From a virus, in the IMG/VR virus record IMGVR_UViG_3300037137_000682, positions 1 through 20,642 of that record: a stretch of 20,642 bases of DNA; one strand, given 5' to 3'. The notes beneath the pieces are model-generated. The model saw nothing but the letters and a program-made list of their open reading frames with translations, was not told the DNA's origin and did not search any database. The translations under genes and the position numbers were made by a program. Within the stretch, counting starts at the first letter, position 1; the number at the start of each line of letters is the position of its first letter. Shown here one piece after another: positions 4,877 to 11,590 of this stretch.

Positions 4877-6037
4877 ATGGCAGCAGGCGATTTTACCATG
4901 ACAAGCATTGCCCCGGTACTTTACTCGGCAGCGCAGACAGTTTCACAGGAGCCTATAGGTTTCCTCAATTCAATTTCTACCACGTTTGACGACAAAGGTG
5001 TTGCCAAAGGCGATACCATTTACGTTCCGTATACCGCGAAGAATACGGTTGCTGAATACACGCCTGCGGCTTATGCTGCACTCGGTACTGCGGCCACTGC
5101 AAGCAGTATCGGCGTGGGTATCAGTAATTCTTACGTGGATTCTTGGAGCGTTAGCGGTGAGCAGGAGAGGTCACTTCTTAACGGTGATAACGGCGCTGAA
5201 TGGTTGCGTCTCAAGACCGAAAACGCAATGCGTACAGTTCGCAATGCGATGGAAGTACTCGCGTTTACCGCCGTGAAAAACGGTTCATCCAGAGCGAACG
5301 GCACGGCAGGCACGACACCTTTCGCAAGCGATCTTACGGCACTTACTGCCGCTAAGAAAATCCTGGTGGACAATGGCGCACCGCTTTCTGATCTGCAATG
5401 CGTTATGAACTCCGATGCGGCGATGAATCTGTCGAATCTTGGAATTTACAACCAGGCTATGATTGCAGGAAGCGACACGGAACGGCGTACTGGCCGGTAT
5501 CTTCCTCAGCATGGTTTCAACATCAGCGTATCCGGTGGGATTTCTTCACATACCGCCGGAGCAGGTACTGGCTACGATCTCACATCTGCTTCGCATCCTG
5601 TTGGAACGACGACGCTCATTACTGAGAGCGGAACAGTTAATGCTACCGGTTTTGTAGCTGGTGATGTTATTACTAAAGCCGGTGGAACCACTGACGCGAA
5701 TAAATACGTTATTAATACAGGTCTTGTTGCAACAAGTGGAAATCTTGTAATCAATAGGCCGGGTCTTGTGGTAGTTGGTGCTGATGCTGATGAATTGACA
5801 ATCGGTGGATCGTACACAGGCGCATTCTGCTTTGAGCGTTCTGCTGTTGTTGGTGTTGTGCGTCCCCCGCTGATCCCAGCGAGCGCCATTCTTCAGACTC
5901 AGCTTGTTACGGATCAGTTCGGTCTTACGTATCTGTTTGTCCGTTGCATAGGCGATGGCATCATCACCTATCGAATACACCTCTGCGGTGGTTTCAAGGC
6001 TGTGCAGAATGAACACATTGCAACTATTCTCGGATAA
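4877..6037 (+). CDS. Major capsid (coat) protein, P22-coat-like HK97 fold
   Basis: This encodes 386 aa behind a strong ribosome site (AAGGAGTG at 4864-4871). The N-terminus (IAPVLYSAAQTVSQEPIGFL, then GDTIYVPYTAK) and the following helix with ERSLLNGDNGAEWLRLKTENAMRTV resemble the P22 gp5 type of coat: N-arm, then E-loop strand, then spine helix. A beta-rich, Gly/Thr-rich stretch at about residues 230-315 (from AGTGYDLTSA to ELTIGGS) may be an inserted domain of the P22 I-domain kind. The protein ends with A-domain strands and HIATILG. Position after the scaffold supports the call strongly; the P22-like subgroup is less certain. Confidence 0.82.
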   Translation: MAAGDFTMTSIAPVLYSAAQTVSQEPIGFLNSISTTFDDKGVAKGDTIYVPYTAKNTVAEYTPAAYAALGTAATASSIGVGISNSYVDSWSVSGEQERSLLNGDNGAEWLRLKTENAMRTVRNAMEVLAFTAVKNGSSRANGTAGTTPFASDLTALTAAKKILVDNGAPLSDLQCVMNSDAAMNLSNLGIYNQAMIAGSDTERRTGRYLPQHGFNISVSGGISSHTAGAGTGYDLTSASHPVGTTTLITESGTVNATGFVAGDVITKAGGTTDANKYVINTGLVATSGNLVINRPGLVVVGADADELTIGGSYTGAFCFERSAVVGVVRPPLIPASAILQTQLVTDQFGLTYLFVRCIGDGIITYRIHLCGGFKAVQNEHIATILG

Positions 6038-6047
6038 GGATAAAAAC

Positions 6048-6341
6048 ATGATAACTGTACGATGGATTGACGGTAACAGGACAAAACAGATAGAAGATTC
6101 CAGACTTGCTGAATATCTATCGTATGGTTGGATTGTGTGCGATGATAATGCTAAACAGGAACCGGTAGAAATGCCGGTTCCTGTTGTTTTAACTGAGCAA
6201 GAGCCGTATGTTGATAATACAGAATACGGTAAAATAGTTGCTGTTAATCCTGAACCTGAAAAAGAAATCGGTTCAAATGTTGATAAGCTTGAGGCAGCAA
6301 TGAAAAAACACAAGCGCGGTCGTGGCAGGCCTAAAAAATAA
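6048..6341 (+). CDS. Small protein with AT-hook-like C-terminus (97 aa)
   Basis: The ATG at 6048 has AAGGA at 6036-6040 upstream, overlapping the coat stop codon. The first 35 residues (MITVRWIDGNRTKQIEDSRL...YGWIVC) look like a small compact domain. The centre is acidic and proline-rich, with a PVEMPVPVV segment. The C-terminus is KKHKRGRGRPKK, where RGRP flanked by basic residues matches the AT-hook, a minor-groove DNA-binding element. Short connector-region proteins of phages sometimes end in GRPKK, so this may be a head-completion protein contacting DNA at the portal; that role is inferred. The gene contains a perfect 12-base inverted repeat. Its stop overlaps the next ATG by one base. 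Confidence 0.65.
   Translation: MITVRWIDGNRTKQIEDSRLAEYLSYGWIVCDDNAKQEPVEMPVPVVLTEQEPYVDNTEYGKIVAVNPEPEKEIGSNVDKLEAAMKKHKRGRGRPKK
6154..6185 (+). repeat. Perfect 12-base inverted repeat inside a gene
   Basis: AACAGGAACCGG at 6154-6165 pairs perfectly with CCGGTTCCTGTT at 6174-6185 across an 8-base loop, followed by GTTTT. This is the strongest hairpin seen inside any gene of the window and lies about 120 bases after the coat stop codon. It could act as a weak terminator, a barrier to 3' exonucleases or a processing site that sets coat mRNA level; the T-run is too short for a confident terminator call. Confidence 0.6.
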
Positions 6342-6781: not shown

Positions 6782-7201
6782 ATGGCATATACTGCAAAAT
6801 ACATAGCGTTTACAGATATAACAGATAGTGTTGTCCGTGATTTTGTTCAATCTGGAGCGGAAGATGGACGGCATGATATTTGGATGGAGAACACTGACCT
6901 TGAACTTGAGGCGCTTGCGCTTGAGCGTGGCGTTGTTTCTACGAGTATATATGAAACTCCATTAAGTTACAGGATAAAAGAATATGCGATTGCATATTTT
7001 TGTTTCCTTGTATGTCAAGATTGTACTTCTGAAAATAATGTTGAGGTGCCTGAAAATGAAAGCTATTTCAAAAAATTGATATGGTATAAAGAGCGTTGCG
7101 AATTGCTTAAAAGTCAGATCACAAAAGAAATGTTTATGAATACAGCGCAATCACTCTCTCCTTATCAAATGGTGCAAACAGGAATTTTATACAGATCATG
7201 A
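6782..7201 (+). CDS. Head-tail connector/adaptor candidate
   Basis: This encodes 139 aa and starts directly after the previous stop. The product is largely helical: an N-terminal segment MAYTAKYIAFTDITDSVVRD, a helix with LELEALALERGV, then RIKEYAIAYFCFLVCQDC and a final helix with WYKERCELLKSQITKEMF. Size, helicity and position between a gp10-like gene and a tail terminator candidate match the adaptor proteins (HK97 gp6 / SPP1 gp15 type) that extend the portal, but no sharp motif is seen. The stop overlaps the next start as ATGA. Confidence 0.6.
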   Translation: MAYTAKYIAFTDITDSVVRDFVQSGAEDGRHDIWMENTDLELEALALERGVVSTSIYETPLSYRIKEYAIAYFCFLVCQDCTSENNVEVPENESYFKKLIWYKERCELLKSQITKEMFMNTAQSLSPYQMVQTGILYRS

Positions 7202-7659
7202 CAGCAAGAGCAACAACTATATCTGGAGAGATTGCAACTATTATCAGTGGTATGACCACTGTTGGCGGGTATAACTATACATGGGGAACAATCAACCAGG
7301 CTGATCGTGCGCGTGTGAGTGCGTATCCGTGCGCGTTGATAAGGTATAATACAGAAACAGCGGTTGAGGGGATTAACGGGCTGTATGGATTTCAAGAGGC
7401 TGAAGTAATAATAAGTGTTGATTATCGTATCACTCCAACCCTGACAGTACAACCAGAGATCACAGCTGACAGTGCGCTTGATATGGCATTGGCTGATTTA
7501 ATAAAAGTATTCGGCGCTAACAATACTGGATATTTGCCATTGAGTAAAGAGGCTGTATTGTCGTTTAAGAGCAGCGAGAAAATACCAGATAAGCGTGGCA
7601 ATACGTATCATCCGACAAGTTTAGTGACTAAATGGAATTTGTTTTATCATAATAGTTGA
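7198..7659 (+). CDS. Tail terminator / tail completion candidate (gpU-like)
   Basis: This encodes 153 aa and overlaps the previous stop (ATGA). It begins with a helix MTARATTISGEIATIISGM, followed by strands including ARVSAYPCALIRYNTE and EAEVIISVDYRI, a helix with LDMALADLIKVFG and a final strand VTKWNLFYHNS. The helix-then-beta-sheet order, length and location just before the tail tube gene fit tail terminators, which cap the tail tube and fix its length. No catalytic motif is expected. The assignment rests mainly on synteny and pattern. Confidence 0.6.
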   Translation: MTARATTISGEIATIISGMTTVGGYNYTWGTINQADRARVSAYPCALIRYNTETAVEGINGLYGFQEAEVIISVDYRITPTLTVQPEITADSALDMALADLIKVFGANNTGYLPLSKEAVLSFKSSEKIPDKRGNTYHPTSLVTKWNLFYHNS

Positions 7660-7670
7660 GAAAACAAAAT

Positions 7671-9239
7671 ATGTCATTTCCTATACTCTGGTGGAAAGCC
7701 GAAGATAACCCGAACGAATCCCAAGCCGGGGTTAACGCTGTTTGGAACACTACCACCGCGTACGCAACGGGTAAAGTAGGTAAGGCATTTTCTTTTTCTT
7801 TCGGGTTAGGTGATAACTACGGATTATCAACTGTAAATAATGCGCTTTTTAATTTTGCGGCTACGGGTTCGTTCTCGATACGTTTATGGTTAAAGCTTGC
7901 CGATACGATTATAGGCAATCCAGGGACGTTCGTAGTAAAAGGACTGTATGCTCAAAATAAAAACTACGGTATCGGTATAAACACCTTGAATAATCTTTTC
8001 TTTTATTATAATAATTCAACAGCGGTGAATACCGGGTATACTATAACCGATACAAATTGGCATGACCTTTTATTTACGTATGCAAATGGCAAATGGAATA
8101 TTTACGCCGATAGTGTGAATGTAACGAGTGCGACTATCTTAGCGGGAACGTATTTAATATCAAACACGGATCTATCGTTAATTTTTGCACAAGCATATTA
8201 TAGCGACTTTCAGGGGTTGCTTGATGAAATAAGAATTTATGATAGTGTTATTACACCTAATAACCAGGATGGGCCTATGGTACCTACTTTTCAAAAGCTT
8301 AATTTGCTTACTGCCAAAGTGCAATCTGCACTTGGATCTAAAGCAACGCCAGCGGCAGCAGATTTCATAACTGTTGACGATAACTTTTCACTTGACTATA
8401 AAAAAGAGTTCGCAGAGCAAGCGCTCGCGCAAGGGATATTTGGAAATCCTCAGGCTGTTGCCGGGATGAGTTTGGTTGATGTAAAGGTAACGCTCCCTAT
8501 TATTCCAACCGGATCGGCCACTGTCCCCAATGTCGGCGGGTTCCTTAATTGTTGCGGTATGGTGTATGCACTTGCGACAAAAAAACATTCATGGGCACCT
8601 ACAAGCGTTATTGCGACTAACTGGAAAGATATGACTCTATGGGGTTATACTGGCGATAAAACTGCCGGTGATACTATTATCACCAAGGCTCATAGTGTTA
8701 TGTTCGACTATGAAATTAGCGGTGAGGTTGGGAAACCTTGCACTATAACATTTACTGGCAAAGGTGTTCCAGATGGCGCACCTGCTGCCGGAACTTATTT
8801 GACAGATACTATTGCAGCAATTAGTACTGTTCCGCCTGCTGTTCTCAAAAATGCGACTCAGACTATCAACGGTCTTGCTTTGCACATTCTAAAATTTTCT
8901 GTTAAAGGTGGTAATGATGTGCAGATGATCAAGAATATGGGAGATGAGAGCGGTAATTTGCAGAGTATGATTGTTAATAAAAAGGCATCGTGGTCAGTAA
9001 CCGCATACATGGAAGATGCAAGCTCTATTAATCCAACAACCGGAATGGCTGCTGGCACGCTTGCGACTACTACTATCAAGTTCGGTAGTGCTGCTGATAG
9101 TTATATCAGTATTACAAGCGGATCGAATAAAAGCGAGATACGCGAATGCAAGCAAAGCGTTGATAATGGTCTAATGGTATGGGAAATCACAGGATCATTC
9201 GTTGATAACGATTTTACAGTTGCTATCAATGACGCATAA
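7671..9239 (+). CDS. Tail tube protein with N-terminal LamG (lectin-like) domain
   Basis: This encodes 522 aa, far longer than a usual tube subunit. Residues about 1-200 form a LamG/concanavalin-like jelly roll: an N-terminal strand ILWWKAEDNPN, TGKVGKAFSFSF, GSFSIRLWLKL, NWHDLLFTYANGKWNIYADS and the closing GLLDEIRIYDSVITP, the most typical LamG ending. From residue 203 (MVPTFQKLNLLTAKVQSALG) the sequence is a siphophage tube protein: ADFITVDDNFSLDY, a G-x-x-VDVKVTLPI strand, FLNCCGMVYAL, and late strands ending GSFVDNDFTVAIND. The ATG at 7671 was chosen over the TTG at 7656, which overlaps the upstream stop and has no ribosome site. LamG domains bind carbohydrate or protein ligands; placement on the outside of the tail is inferred. 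Confidence 0.8.
   Translation: MSFPILWWKAEDNPNESQAGVNAVWNTTTAYATGKVGKAFSFSFGLGDNYGLSTVNNALFNFAATGSFSIRLWLKLADTIIGNPGTFVVKGLYAQNKNYGIGINTLNNLFFYYNNSTAVNTGYTITDTNWHDLLFTYANGKWNIYADSVNVTSATILAGTYLISNTDLSLIFAQAYYSDFQGLLDEIRIYDSVITPNNQDGPMVPTFQKLNLLTAKVQSALGSKATPAAADFITVDDNFSLDYKKEFAEQALAQGIFGNPQAVAGMSLVDVKVTLPIIPTGSATVPNVGGFLNCCGMVYALATKKHSWAPTSVIATNWKDMTLWGYTGDKTAGDTIITKAHSVMFDYEISGEVGKPCTITFTGKGVPDGAPAAGTYLTDTIAAISTVPPAVLKNATQTINGLALHILKFSVKGGNDVQMIKNMGDESGNLQSMIVNKKASWSVTAYMEDASSINPTTGMAAGTLATTTIKFGSAADSYISITSGSNKSEIRECKQSVDNGLMVWEITGSFVDNDFTVAINDA
8266..8279 (+). promoter_or_regulatory. Candidate internal ribosome site and start codon for a short tube protein
   Basis: AGGA at 8266-8269 (within CCAGGATGG) stands seven bases before ATG at 8277-8279, which is in frame with the LamG-tube gene. 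The spacing is ideal, and this SD-ATG pair is better than the weak GAGAAAA before the full-length start. Initiation here would give a 320-residue protein that begins at the boundary between the two domains. Confidence 0.5.
8277..9239 (+). CDS. Possible short form of the tail tube protein from an internal start
   Basis: This is a nested, in-frame candidate of 320 aa starting MVPTFQKLNLL, the length expected of a plain siphophage tube subunit. It keeps the whole tube domain and drops the LamG domain exactly at their junction. The known precedent for mixed tube subunits is SPP1 gp17.1 and gp17.1*, where a frameshift adds an extra C-terminal domain to a minority of copies; here the extra domain would be N-terminal and selected by start choice. 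That the internal start is used is an inference from sequence only. Confidence 0.45.
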   Translation: MVPTFQKLNLLTAKVQSALGSKATPAAADFITVDDNFSLDYKKEFAEQALAQGIFGNPQAVAGMSLVDVKVTLPIIPTGSATVPNVGGFLNCCGMVYALATKKHSWAPTSVIATNWKDMTLWGYTGDKTAGDTIITKAHSVMFDYEISGEVGKPCTITFTGKGVPDGAPAAGTYLTDTIAAISTVPPAVLKNATQTINGLALHILKFSVKGGNDVQMIKNMGDESGNLQSMIVNKKASWSVTAYMEDASSINPTTGMAAGTLATTTIKFGSAADSYISITSGSNKSEIRECKQSVDNGLMVWEITGSFVDNDFTVAINDA

Positions 9240-9266: not shown

Positions 9267-9539
9267 ATGATACCCGTATCCTCAAAGGAAAGTATTGAAT
9301 ACGTTGACAGTGATAAAGTTGTATGGAAATTTAAGCCAAAGACAGGATCACTGGAAAAGGAAATGTTTGGAATTTACGATGAAAACATTGATTACAAAGC
9401 ACGTTTGACTGTTGTTGATGCTTTCATTGATAAAATCCTAATAACTCCTAAAGCTGATTATAACAGTGATGAGCAGGCTGAAATAATTAAGTATTGGAAC
9501 CTGGCGAACAGACTAACCACAGAGGAAAAAAAAAGTTAA
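9267..9539 (+). CDS. Tail assembly chaperone G
   Basis: This encodes 90 aa behind AAAGGGG at 9252-9258. It begins MIPVSSKESIEYVDSDKVVW with beta strands followed by helices (ENIDYKARLTVVDAFIDKIL, then EQAEIIKYWNLANRL), the usual make-up of the G chaperone that coats the tape measure before tube polymerisation. It lies between the tube and the tape measure, exactly where G/GT genes sit. The gene ends GAG GAA AAA AAA AGT TAA, so the ribosome meets a run of nine A residues just before the stop; slippage there makes the longer GT product. Confidence 0.8.
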   Translation: MIPVSSKESIEYVDSDKVVWKFKPKTGSLEKEMFGIYDENIDYKARLTVVDAFIDKILITPKADYNSDEQAEIIKYWNLANRLTTEEKKS

Positions 9540-9973
9540 TTGTCGCAGTTTTGATGCAATATAAACCGTTTTCATTGGCATATAATTGCGGAAATTGTGA
9601 TAAAAAACAGAAAAAAGATCGTGGATGCAATAGGAATGTAAAAAATAACCTACAAATTGACTGTACTTGTGGTGGGGTTGATGGATGTGAAATATGTTGC
9701 AGGCCATTGTCGAAAGGCAAGCGTAAGAAAATAAGCTGGGGTTGGTTTAATATTAATCGGTGTCCTGTTAGTTTTTGTAATGATATAAATATAAACAGAT
9801 TTATTCCTTACTTCTGGCATTTTAAGGCGACAAACAATATGTGCTATCCAGATGGACAAGGAAGATACGAACAGCCTTCAAAACTATTGGAGGCTTTTTC
9901 TATTTGTGGATTCATGGCTAACAAGCGTGAACAAATAGAAATTGATAACGCAAACAAAATGGCTAAGAAATAG
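9267..9973 (+). CDS. Tail assembly chaperone GT, made by -1 frameshift
   Basis: The run of A at 9526-9534 followed by G gives the heptamer A AAA AAA (9527-9533) in the G frame. A -1 slip after the AAA codon at 9531-9533 leads into the overlapping open frame, read from AAG at 9533-9535 to the stop at 9971-9973. The fused product is 235 aa: 89 from G, then 146 from T. The T part is rich in cysteine, with C-x2-C at residues 108/111, C121 and C133-x-C-x5-C-x2-CC at 133-145, suggesting metal binding. It also has a YPDGQGRYEQPSKLLEAF segment of the kind seen in T domains of other phages. A weak stem (9556-9563 with 9581-9589) follows the slip site. G/GT pairs of this kind are established in lambda-like tails. 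Confidence 0.82.
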
Positions 9974-9982
9974 GTTGATATT

Positions 9983-11590
9983 ATGGCTGAACATGACATT
10001 AATGTAAAATTAAATGTTGTAGATAATATGTCACAGCCTATTGCTGATGCTTCAAAGAAGGTCGATTCCTCACTGAAGCAGACAAAAGATTCATTTAAGG
10101 GTTTGGGTGATGAGATAAAGGGCAATTTTGTTAATGCTATTAAAGGCGCTGTTGTTGCTTATATTGGAATGCAGGGAATACAAAAAGTAACGCAATTTTT
10201 AAAAGAATCAAGATTAGAATACCAGGAATCTGTTAGAGTTCAAGCGCAACTCAGAACTGCGTTAGGATATACATCAACTGCATTAAATCAACAAGCGGAA
10301 GCATTAGGACAAAAATTAAAAGTTGACAACGAAGAAATTACTGCTGTACAGGTTAAAATAGCTAATTATGTTAAAAATGATGAAGCTGTAAAGCAATTAA
10401 CTCCAGCTATTCTTGATCTTGCTGCTGCAACTGGCATGGACATGGCAAGTGCGGCTAACATTGTAGCAAAAGCTATAAATGATGATTCAGATGAATTGGG
10501 TAAGTTTAAAATAGCGGTAGATGGCGCAAGAGGGAGCGCAGAAAGAACGCAATCTGTTATTGATGGATTAACTTCAAAATTTAAAGGTCAAGCAGAAGCC
10601 CTAACAACATCAAAGGATGGGTTTGATGAGATGGCTTTATCTTGGAAAAATTTTGAGGAAAAGGTTGGAGGAAGCAAGGTACTTAAATGGTGGGCTGATG
10701 GTGCTGCACGTATAGTTGATTTGTGGACTAATGGAATGGAAAAAGTATTGGGAGTAGATAAAAAAACAGCAGAATCAGAAGAAGAAGTTGCAAAAAACGC
10801 ATCTGATAAAAAGGTATCAATATTAAAAGCTGAACAAGATTTAAAAAATCAAATAAGACGCGATAACTTAGAAAAATACAAAAAAATTAAAGAGGAAGAA
10901 TACCAGGCTGCAATTGATTCTATTGAAATTGAGAAACAATTGAAGCAGGAAGAATATGATGCAACTATTCAATCACTTGAAATTGAAAAACAATTACAGG
11001 TTGAAAAAATAAATGGAATAATAAAAATACAAAATGCTGAGGCAGCAGCAAGACAGAAAAAAATTAATGATGATTTATTAATTAAAAAATCTGATAATGA
11101 AAAATCTAAAAATGCAGTAAATAATAGTCTTGGAATGGCTGCTCAATTATTTGAAGGCCAAAAAAAATATATAGGAGCATATAAGGCATTTGCAATATCT
11201 CAGGCTATAATGGATACCTGGGCAGCAGCTAATACAAACCTTAAAAGCGCACCTATGCCGTGGGGTGGTATTGCCGCTGGGTTTGCTGTTGCTCTTGGCC
11301 TTGCAAACGTAGCAAAAATATCAAATCAAAAATTTGAAACTGGAACGGCATTCGCTCCTGGTGGTATGTCGTTAATCAATGAACAGGGTGGGGAATATGT
11401 CAATTTACCGCGTGGATCGCAGGTATATAATAATACTCAGACTCGCAATATGACAACAAACGCGGCTCTTAATGTGACAATTATGGATAGTAGTGGTAAT
11501 ATTACCGAAACGATACGGGCTCAGTTACGTAGCGGCCAGGGTGATCAACTGGTGCGTGATATTCAAGCGAAAATGGCACGGCAATTATGA
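9983..11590 (+). CDS. Tail tape measure protein
   Basis: This encodes 535 aa, mostly alpha-helical. It opens MAEHDINVKLNVVDNMSQPI, contains a hydrophobic stretch around residues 46-62 (FVNAIKGAVVAYIGMQGI) and a long helical body. Near the C-terminus comes the segment KAFAISQAIMDTWAAANTNL, then PWGGIAAGFAVALGLANVAKI and FETGTAFAPGG, which is the standard tape measure ending. An 18-residue repeat is present in the body at 10892-10999. At roughly 0.15 nm per residue this length suggests a tail of about 80 nm, short for a siphophage. The gene is A-rich until about 11,220 and more balanced after that, as if the C-terminal part had a separate origin. The stop overlaps the next start as ATGA. Confidence 0.87.
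   Translation: MAEHDINVKLNVVDNMSQPIADASKKVDSSLKQTKDSFKGLGDEIKGNFVNAIKGAVVAYIGMQGIQKVTQFLKESRLEYQESVRVQAQLRTALGYTSTALNQQAEALGQKLKVDNEEITAVQVKIANYVKNDEAVKQLTPAILDLAAATGMDMASAANIVAKAINDDSDELGKFKIAVDGARGSAERTQSVIDGLTSKFKGQAEALTTSKDGFDEMALSWKNFEEKVGGSKVLKWWADGAARIVDLWTNGMEKVLGVDKKTAESEEEVAKNASDKKVSILKAEQDLKNQIRRDNLEKYKKIKEEEYQAAIDSIEIEKQLKQEEYDATIQSLEIEKQLQVEKINGIIKIQNAEAAARQKKINDDLLIKKSDNEKSKNAVNNSLGMAAQLFEGQKKYIGAYKAFAISQAIMDTWAAANTNLKSAPMPWGGIAAGFAVALGLANVAKISNQKFETGTAFAPGGMSLINEQGGEYVNLPRGSQVYNNTQTRNMTTNAALNVTIMDSSGNITETIRAQLRSGQGDQLVRDIQAKMARQL
10892..10999 (+). repeat. Tandem 54-base repeat in the tape measure gene
   Basis: Two adjacent 54-base units (10892-10945 and 10946-10999) encode EEEYQAAIDSIEIEKQLK and QEEYDATIQSLEIEKQLQ, matching at most positions. 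Tape measure length sets tail length, and gain or loss of such units changes it in steps of 18 residues (about 2.7 nm). The copies differ at the DNA level, so the duplication is not recent. Confidence 0.75.

Follow-up and report, generated by a model that had tools for sequence, protein, structure and literature searches.

The tail tube gene of the window, as we call the whole 20,642-nucleotide stretch of virus DNA analysed here (IMG/VR record IMGVR_UViG_3300037137_000682), is fused in frame behind a LamG domain and holds a Shine-Dalgarno (SD) sequence and an ATG at the boundary of the two parts. We consider it moderately probable that this internal start is functional and yields plain as well as decorated tube subunits from one gene. 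The tube gene of an unfused relative begins at the homologous site, which is also retained in a second fusion, where the tube follows another module. The relevant features, with residues counted from the ATG at 7671 (the internal methionine being Met203 of 522), are as follows.

7198–7659, + strand: upstream gene in the tail terminator position, kept in L007 and L008 (synteny)
7656 (TTG) or 7671 (ATG) to 9239, + strand: full-length ORF, one continuous frame
7656–7658, + strand: possible full-length start TTG, without SD, sharing bases with the upstream stop codon (TTGA)
7671–7673, + strand: likely full-length start ATG, with the weak SD GAG (−2.7 kcal/mol)
7833–8261, + strand: LamG domain, Laminin_G_3 (PF13385), residues 55–197, E 7.8e-17
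8266–8269, + strand: internal SD AGGA, in the register of AGGAGG of the unfused L008 and GGAGG of L007
8277–8279, + strand: in-frame ATG inside the ORF (Met203), homologue of the codon at which the unfused tube gene begins
8277–9239, + strand: tail tube domain and proposed 320-residue plain tube ORF; weak PF18906 score, fold matches to the T5 pb6 and P74-26 tubes
9983–11590, + strand: tape measure protein gene, with PHROG tape measure matches

The first 202 residues of the ORF carry Laminin_G_3, matched with 62.2 bits against a curated cut-off of 27.6, and the last 320 form the tail tube. An AlphaFold model was built on 13 rows. Its tube part (residues 205–522) was well modelled, while the LamG part was poor and was not used. 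The LamG assignment rests on Pfam because this domain did not fold in the model. On Phage_tube_2 (PF18906), the tube part scored only 18.7 bits, under the 27-bit cut-off that was passed by its homologues in L052, L053, and Agrobacterium phage JP1. Its identity as a tube, which had been claimed from the sequence, was borne out by the fold. The modelled tube matched T5 pb6 (9iny) with a Z-score of 23.1 over 292 residues (model 206–522 on chain 3–356) and the P74-26 tube (8ed0) with a Z-score of 22.3 over 293 residues (model 207–522 on chain 1–347). The gene order also fits a tail tube, with a PHROG tail completion gene on one side and the tape measure on the other, and it is the same in phage JP1.

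The tube fold aligns from residue 205–207 onto residues 1–3 of the T5 and P74-26 proteins, and Met203 therefore lies 2–4 residues from the natural N-terminus of the solved tubes. As Laminin_G_3 ends at residue 197, the internal ATG stands at the LamG/tube boundary, where the original prediction had placed it. Assembly of the P74-26 tube is gated by the N-terminus, the first residue of which, Met1, packs in the ring interface (PMC10034513); in T5, tube formation is impaired by deletion of the N terminus (PMC5717097). Subunits with a free N-terminus are therefore plausibly needed, and LamG ahead of Met203 on every subunit would be hard to reconcile with a tube of the P74-26 or T5 kind. According to the model, a plain form beginning at Met203 would have the natural N-terminus of the tube.

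The coordinates of the internal site proved exact: AGGA is followed by seven bases and the in-frame ATG, and the ORF from this ATG codes for the 320 residues that had been proposed for the plain product. Pairing with the anti-SD was −5.9 kcal/mol at 8277, compared with −2.7 at the ATG 7671 and +1.5 at the TTG 7656, which agrees with the earlier claim that the internal signal is the stronger one. A crude initiation model, which is not an RBS calculator, gave the site rank 5 among 25 in-frame starts, with 7671 and 7656 well behind. The mRNA folding near the site showed nothing unusual. An in-frame ATG occurs at 1.6% of codons. Three related phages supplied 205 further internal ATGs for comparison, of which 4.4% have a signal as strong as that at 8277. 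An equal signal was found in 46% of synonymous recodings of the eight residues upstream. The AGGA of the window is thus unremarkable on its own and, as a single sequence, only suggestive; it is the comparison with relatives that carries the case.

Seven IMG/VR loci carry the tube of the window, five of them nearly identical to it, together with L007 and L008. We looked for fused relatives that had lost the SD and ATG and found none: each of the six window-type contigs has both, as does L007, which carries another domain at this place. The only difference in the spacer among the near-identical contigs is one synonymous change, in L002; these contigs are too similar to the window to reveal selection on the site. 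The tube of L008 is 68% identical to that of the window, is unfused, and starts at the same methionine directly after the upstream gene. Its start reads AGGAGG-N5-ATG, with AGGAGG at −11 to −6. The tube of L007 is 80% identical to that of the window and is fused at the same point to an unrelated domain of 318 residues, which has no Pfam match and is beta-helix-like as judged from its sequence pattern. Its same methionine is preceded by GGAGG-N5-ATG, with GGAGG at −10 to −6, and the AGGA of the window lies at −11 to −8. The stretches upstream of the start align without gaps, AGGAGGGTTAT in L008, CGGAGGCTCCT in L007, and AGGATGGGCCT in the window, with ATGGT next in each. What is now an internal site is therefore the original start of the tube gene, which an upstream insertion has brought inside the ORF.

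In L007, the internal site is the best of its gene, ranking first of 21 in-frame starts in the crude initiation model. Its pairing energy is −9.5 kcal/mol, a value of −8 being reached by none of the 205 background internal ATGs, and 7% of synonymous recodings match its signal. The full-length start is weak in both fusions (−2.7 kcal/mol in the window and −2.8 in L007). Synonymous sites are nearly saturated between the tubes of the window and L007 (pS 0.68), although either fusion may be more recent. Both fusions have CCT directly before the ATG, and therefore they are not counted as two certain independent events; they may descend from one fusion with a later swap of the module. Further relatives were sought by scans of genome contigs with tube and tape measure alignments, which gave none, and by a pattern scan for IPTGSATVP, which gave no new tube relative. 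In the phages collection, the tube of the window had no match, and that of L008 matched JP1 only.

For the long form, evidence comes from the LamG part, whose pN/pS of about 0.15–0.3 between the window and the more distant window-type contigs indicates purifying selection. It is therefore probable that the LamG-tube form is made and has a use. The overlap of stop and start codons (TTGA at 7656 in the window, ATGA at the corresponding place, 5380, in L003) suggests coupled initiation of the full-length form. Most differences among the near-identical contigs fall in a short LamG stretch (window 7913–8035), which resembles a recombined tract. A diversity-generating retroelement was considered for this stretch and rejected, as the changes are not adenine-specific.

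The main alternative is that the old SD and ATG are passively carried along, not yet decayed, in a tube built of full-length LamG-tube subunits, with any short product incidental. We regard this as possible but the less credible account. A site that is homologous to the ancestral start would exist without selection, the SD of the window is already one base off AGGAGG, and the close relatives are too alike for decay to be tested; moreover, older decorated paralogues in related phages lack such a site, as decay would also yield. Against it stands L007, which retains a strong GGAGG at ideal spacing within a coding sequence where few recodings are as good. The near saturation between the two tubes points the same way, though pS does not date either fusion, and the part that the free N-terminus plays in P74-26 and T5 tubes is hard to square with a domain in front of it on all subunits (PMC10034513, PMC5717097).

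It is quite unlikely that the short form is nearly all of the tube protein and the long form a trace without a role in the virion: the upstream signals are indeed weak in both fusions, but the LamG is under purifying selection and related modules are found on tube paralogues of relatives. Least probable is a chance motif, in which a Gln-Asp codon pair happens to give AGGA next to an incidental Met. The frequency of equal signals among recodings of the window would allow it; however, the Met and the register of the SD are common to the unfused L008 and to L007, the homology to the L008 start largely refutes chance, and this Met stands at the natural beginning of the fold.

Under the reading that we prefer, a functional internal start, a LamG module of the surface-binding type would have been inserted past the upstream gene's stop and ahead of the RBS of the tube gene, in frame with the tube, and this RBS and ATG, now within coding sequence, would still work. 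Initiation at 8277, strong or moderate, would yield plain subunits of 320 residues, from which most of the tube is probably built. A start at 7656 or 7671, just past the upstream stop, would be used more weakly, possibly through coupling, and supply the LamG-tube subunit; we infer that this subunit would co-assemble with the plain one, either as a small share, interspersed as in SPP1, or as one special ring. The chances appear about evenly balanced for a broader proposal, in which the choice of start in one gene sets the ratio of decorated to plain subunits, N-terminal modules (LamG or beta-helix-like) can be swapped ahead of a retained tube start, and related phages use a second, decorated tube gene instead.

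Two kinds of tube subunit from one gene are known from phage SPP1, in which gp17.1 and gp17.1*, a plain subunit and a form with an extra domain, occur at a ratio of 3:1, and the major tail proteins of Listeria phages PSA, A118, and A500 likewise have dual forms made by frameshift (PMC8718954, PMC5009743). The gene of the window would resemble these in coding for a plain and an extra-domain subunit, the second form here being predicted from sequence. It differs in that the extra domain of SPP1 is C-terminal and is reached by ribosomal frameshift into another frame, whereas LamG is N-terminal and shares one continuous frame with the tube, internal initiation being the proposed source of the plain form. 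In lactococcal 936 phages, MTP-TpeX, also from one gene, places a carbohydrate-binding module on a share of the tube subunits (PMC6669499). The predicted arrangement in the window is similar, with a binding-type module on some subunits, but the module of MTP-TpeX is C-terminal and made by programmed frameshift. The T5 pb6 and P74-26 proteins share with the window's model the tube fold over two beta-sandwich subdomains and an N-terminus at the same place; they differ in beginning at the tube, and the extra Ig-like domain of T5 is C-terminal (PMC8718954).

A parallel for the mechanism is found in endolysin genes (Lys170, LysP7951, and others), which have an in-frame internal RBS and start at a domain boundary; their full-length and C-terminal products from one gene, both shown by experiment, can co-assemble (PMC9430671). 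By the definition used for these genes (PMC9430671), the start is in frame, has an RBS, avoids conserved domains, and keeps a distance of more than 20 residues from both ends; Met203 lies after PF13385 and ahead of the tube fold, at more than this distance from either end. Unlike the tube, endolysins are lysis enzymes and not structural proteins of the virion, and the two products of the window gene are predicted ones. Among the open-access papers searched, none described a tail tube gene with internal initiation. The routes described there to a binding domain on some tube subunits are C-terminal domains and frameshifting, from which an N-terminal module with internal initiation would differ. 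If it holds, surface-binding modules could be swapped on the tail without loss of the plain subunit, and an SD and ATG at the natural N-terminus of a fold inside an ORF would be a signature that can be searched for.

More distant relatives were obtained by tape-measure and tube searches. Their plain tubes have 310–330 amino acids, each with its own SD, mostly a strong one. Three of them (L025, L051, and L052) have, besides the plain tube gene, a second tube-fold gene downstream of the tape measure gene; its tube domain (E about 1e-59) follows an N-terminal module.

L052, 12981–14516: LamG module, Pfam 22 bits (sub-threshold), 22% identical to the window LamG (E 2e-6)
L025, 6882–9413: beta-helix-like module, related to that of L007 (E 1e-5)
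L051, 12663–14456: beta-helix-like module, related to that of L007 (E 1e-5)

No internal ATG with an SD was found at the boundary in these three decorated paralogues. Only one tube gene is present in the records of the window and L007, both of which are probably fragments. The group thus appears to have plain and decorated tubes in two arrangements, as two genes or as one gene with a putative internal start. The decorated paralogues are encoded past the tape measure gene, a position where the gene for a distal ring protein could lie, and they may make up such a ring instead of being mixed along the tube.

Large N-terminal extensions were also found, instead or additionally, on the tail terminator-like gene just upstream of the tube in three relatives.

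L026, 5109–6179: extended tail terminator-like gene (repeats)
L027, 2765–6115: extended tail terminator-like gene
L053, 5844–8981: extended tail terminator-like gene (TIG domain)

In L026, a candidate internal start, GAGG-N6-ATG, lies a few residues inside the terminator part, and in L053 and L027 no ATG with an SD was found at the boundary. With one candidate among three, retention of the old start is therefore not general.

Two other sites in the window were recorded. A run of nine A at 9526–9534, between the genes 9267–9539 and 9494–9973, is the same in L007 and L008, and the sequence GAGGAAAAAAAAAGTTAA is identical in these three diverged phages. Downstream of the run, the ORF reads on in the −1 frame (KKKLIVA.L.QYKPFS) and lacks a well placed ATG common to the three. 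The run looks like the frameshift of a tail assembly chaperone (gpG/gpGT type) or a slippage site. Finally, the otherwise near-identical contigs diverge sharply in patches at about 5000–5200 and 6000–6200 of the window, which fall within and just past the major head protein gene.
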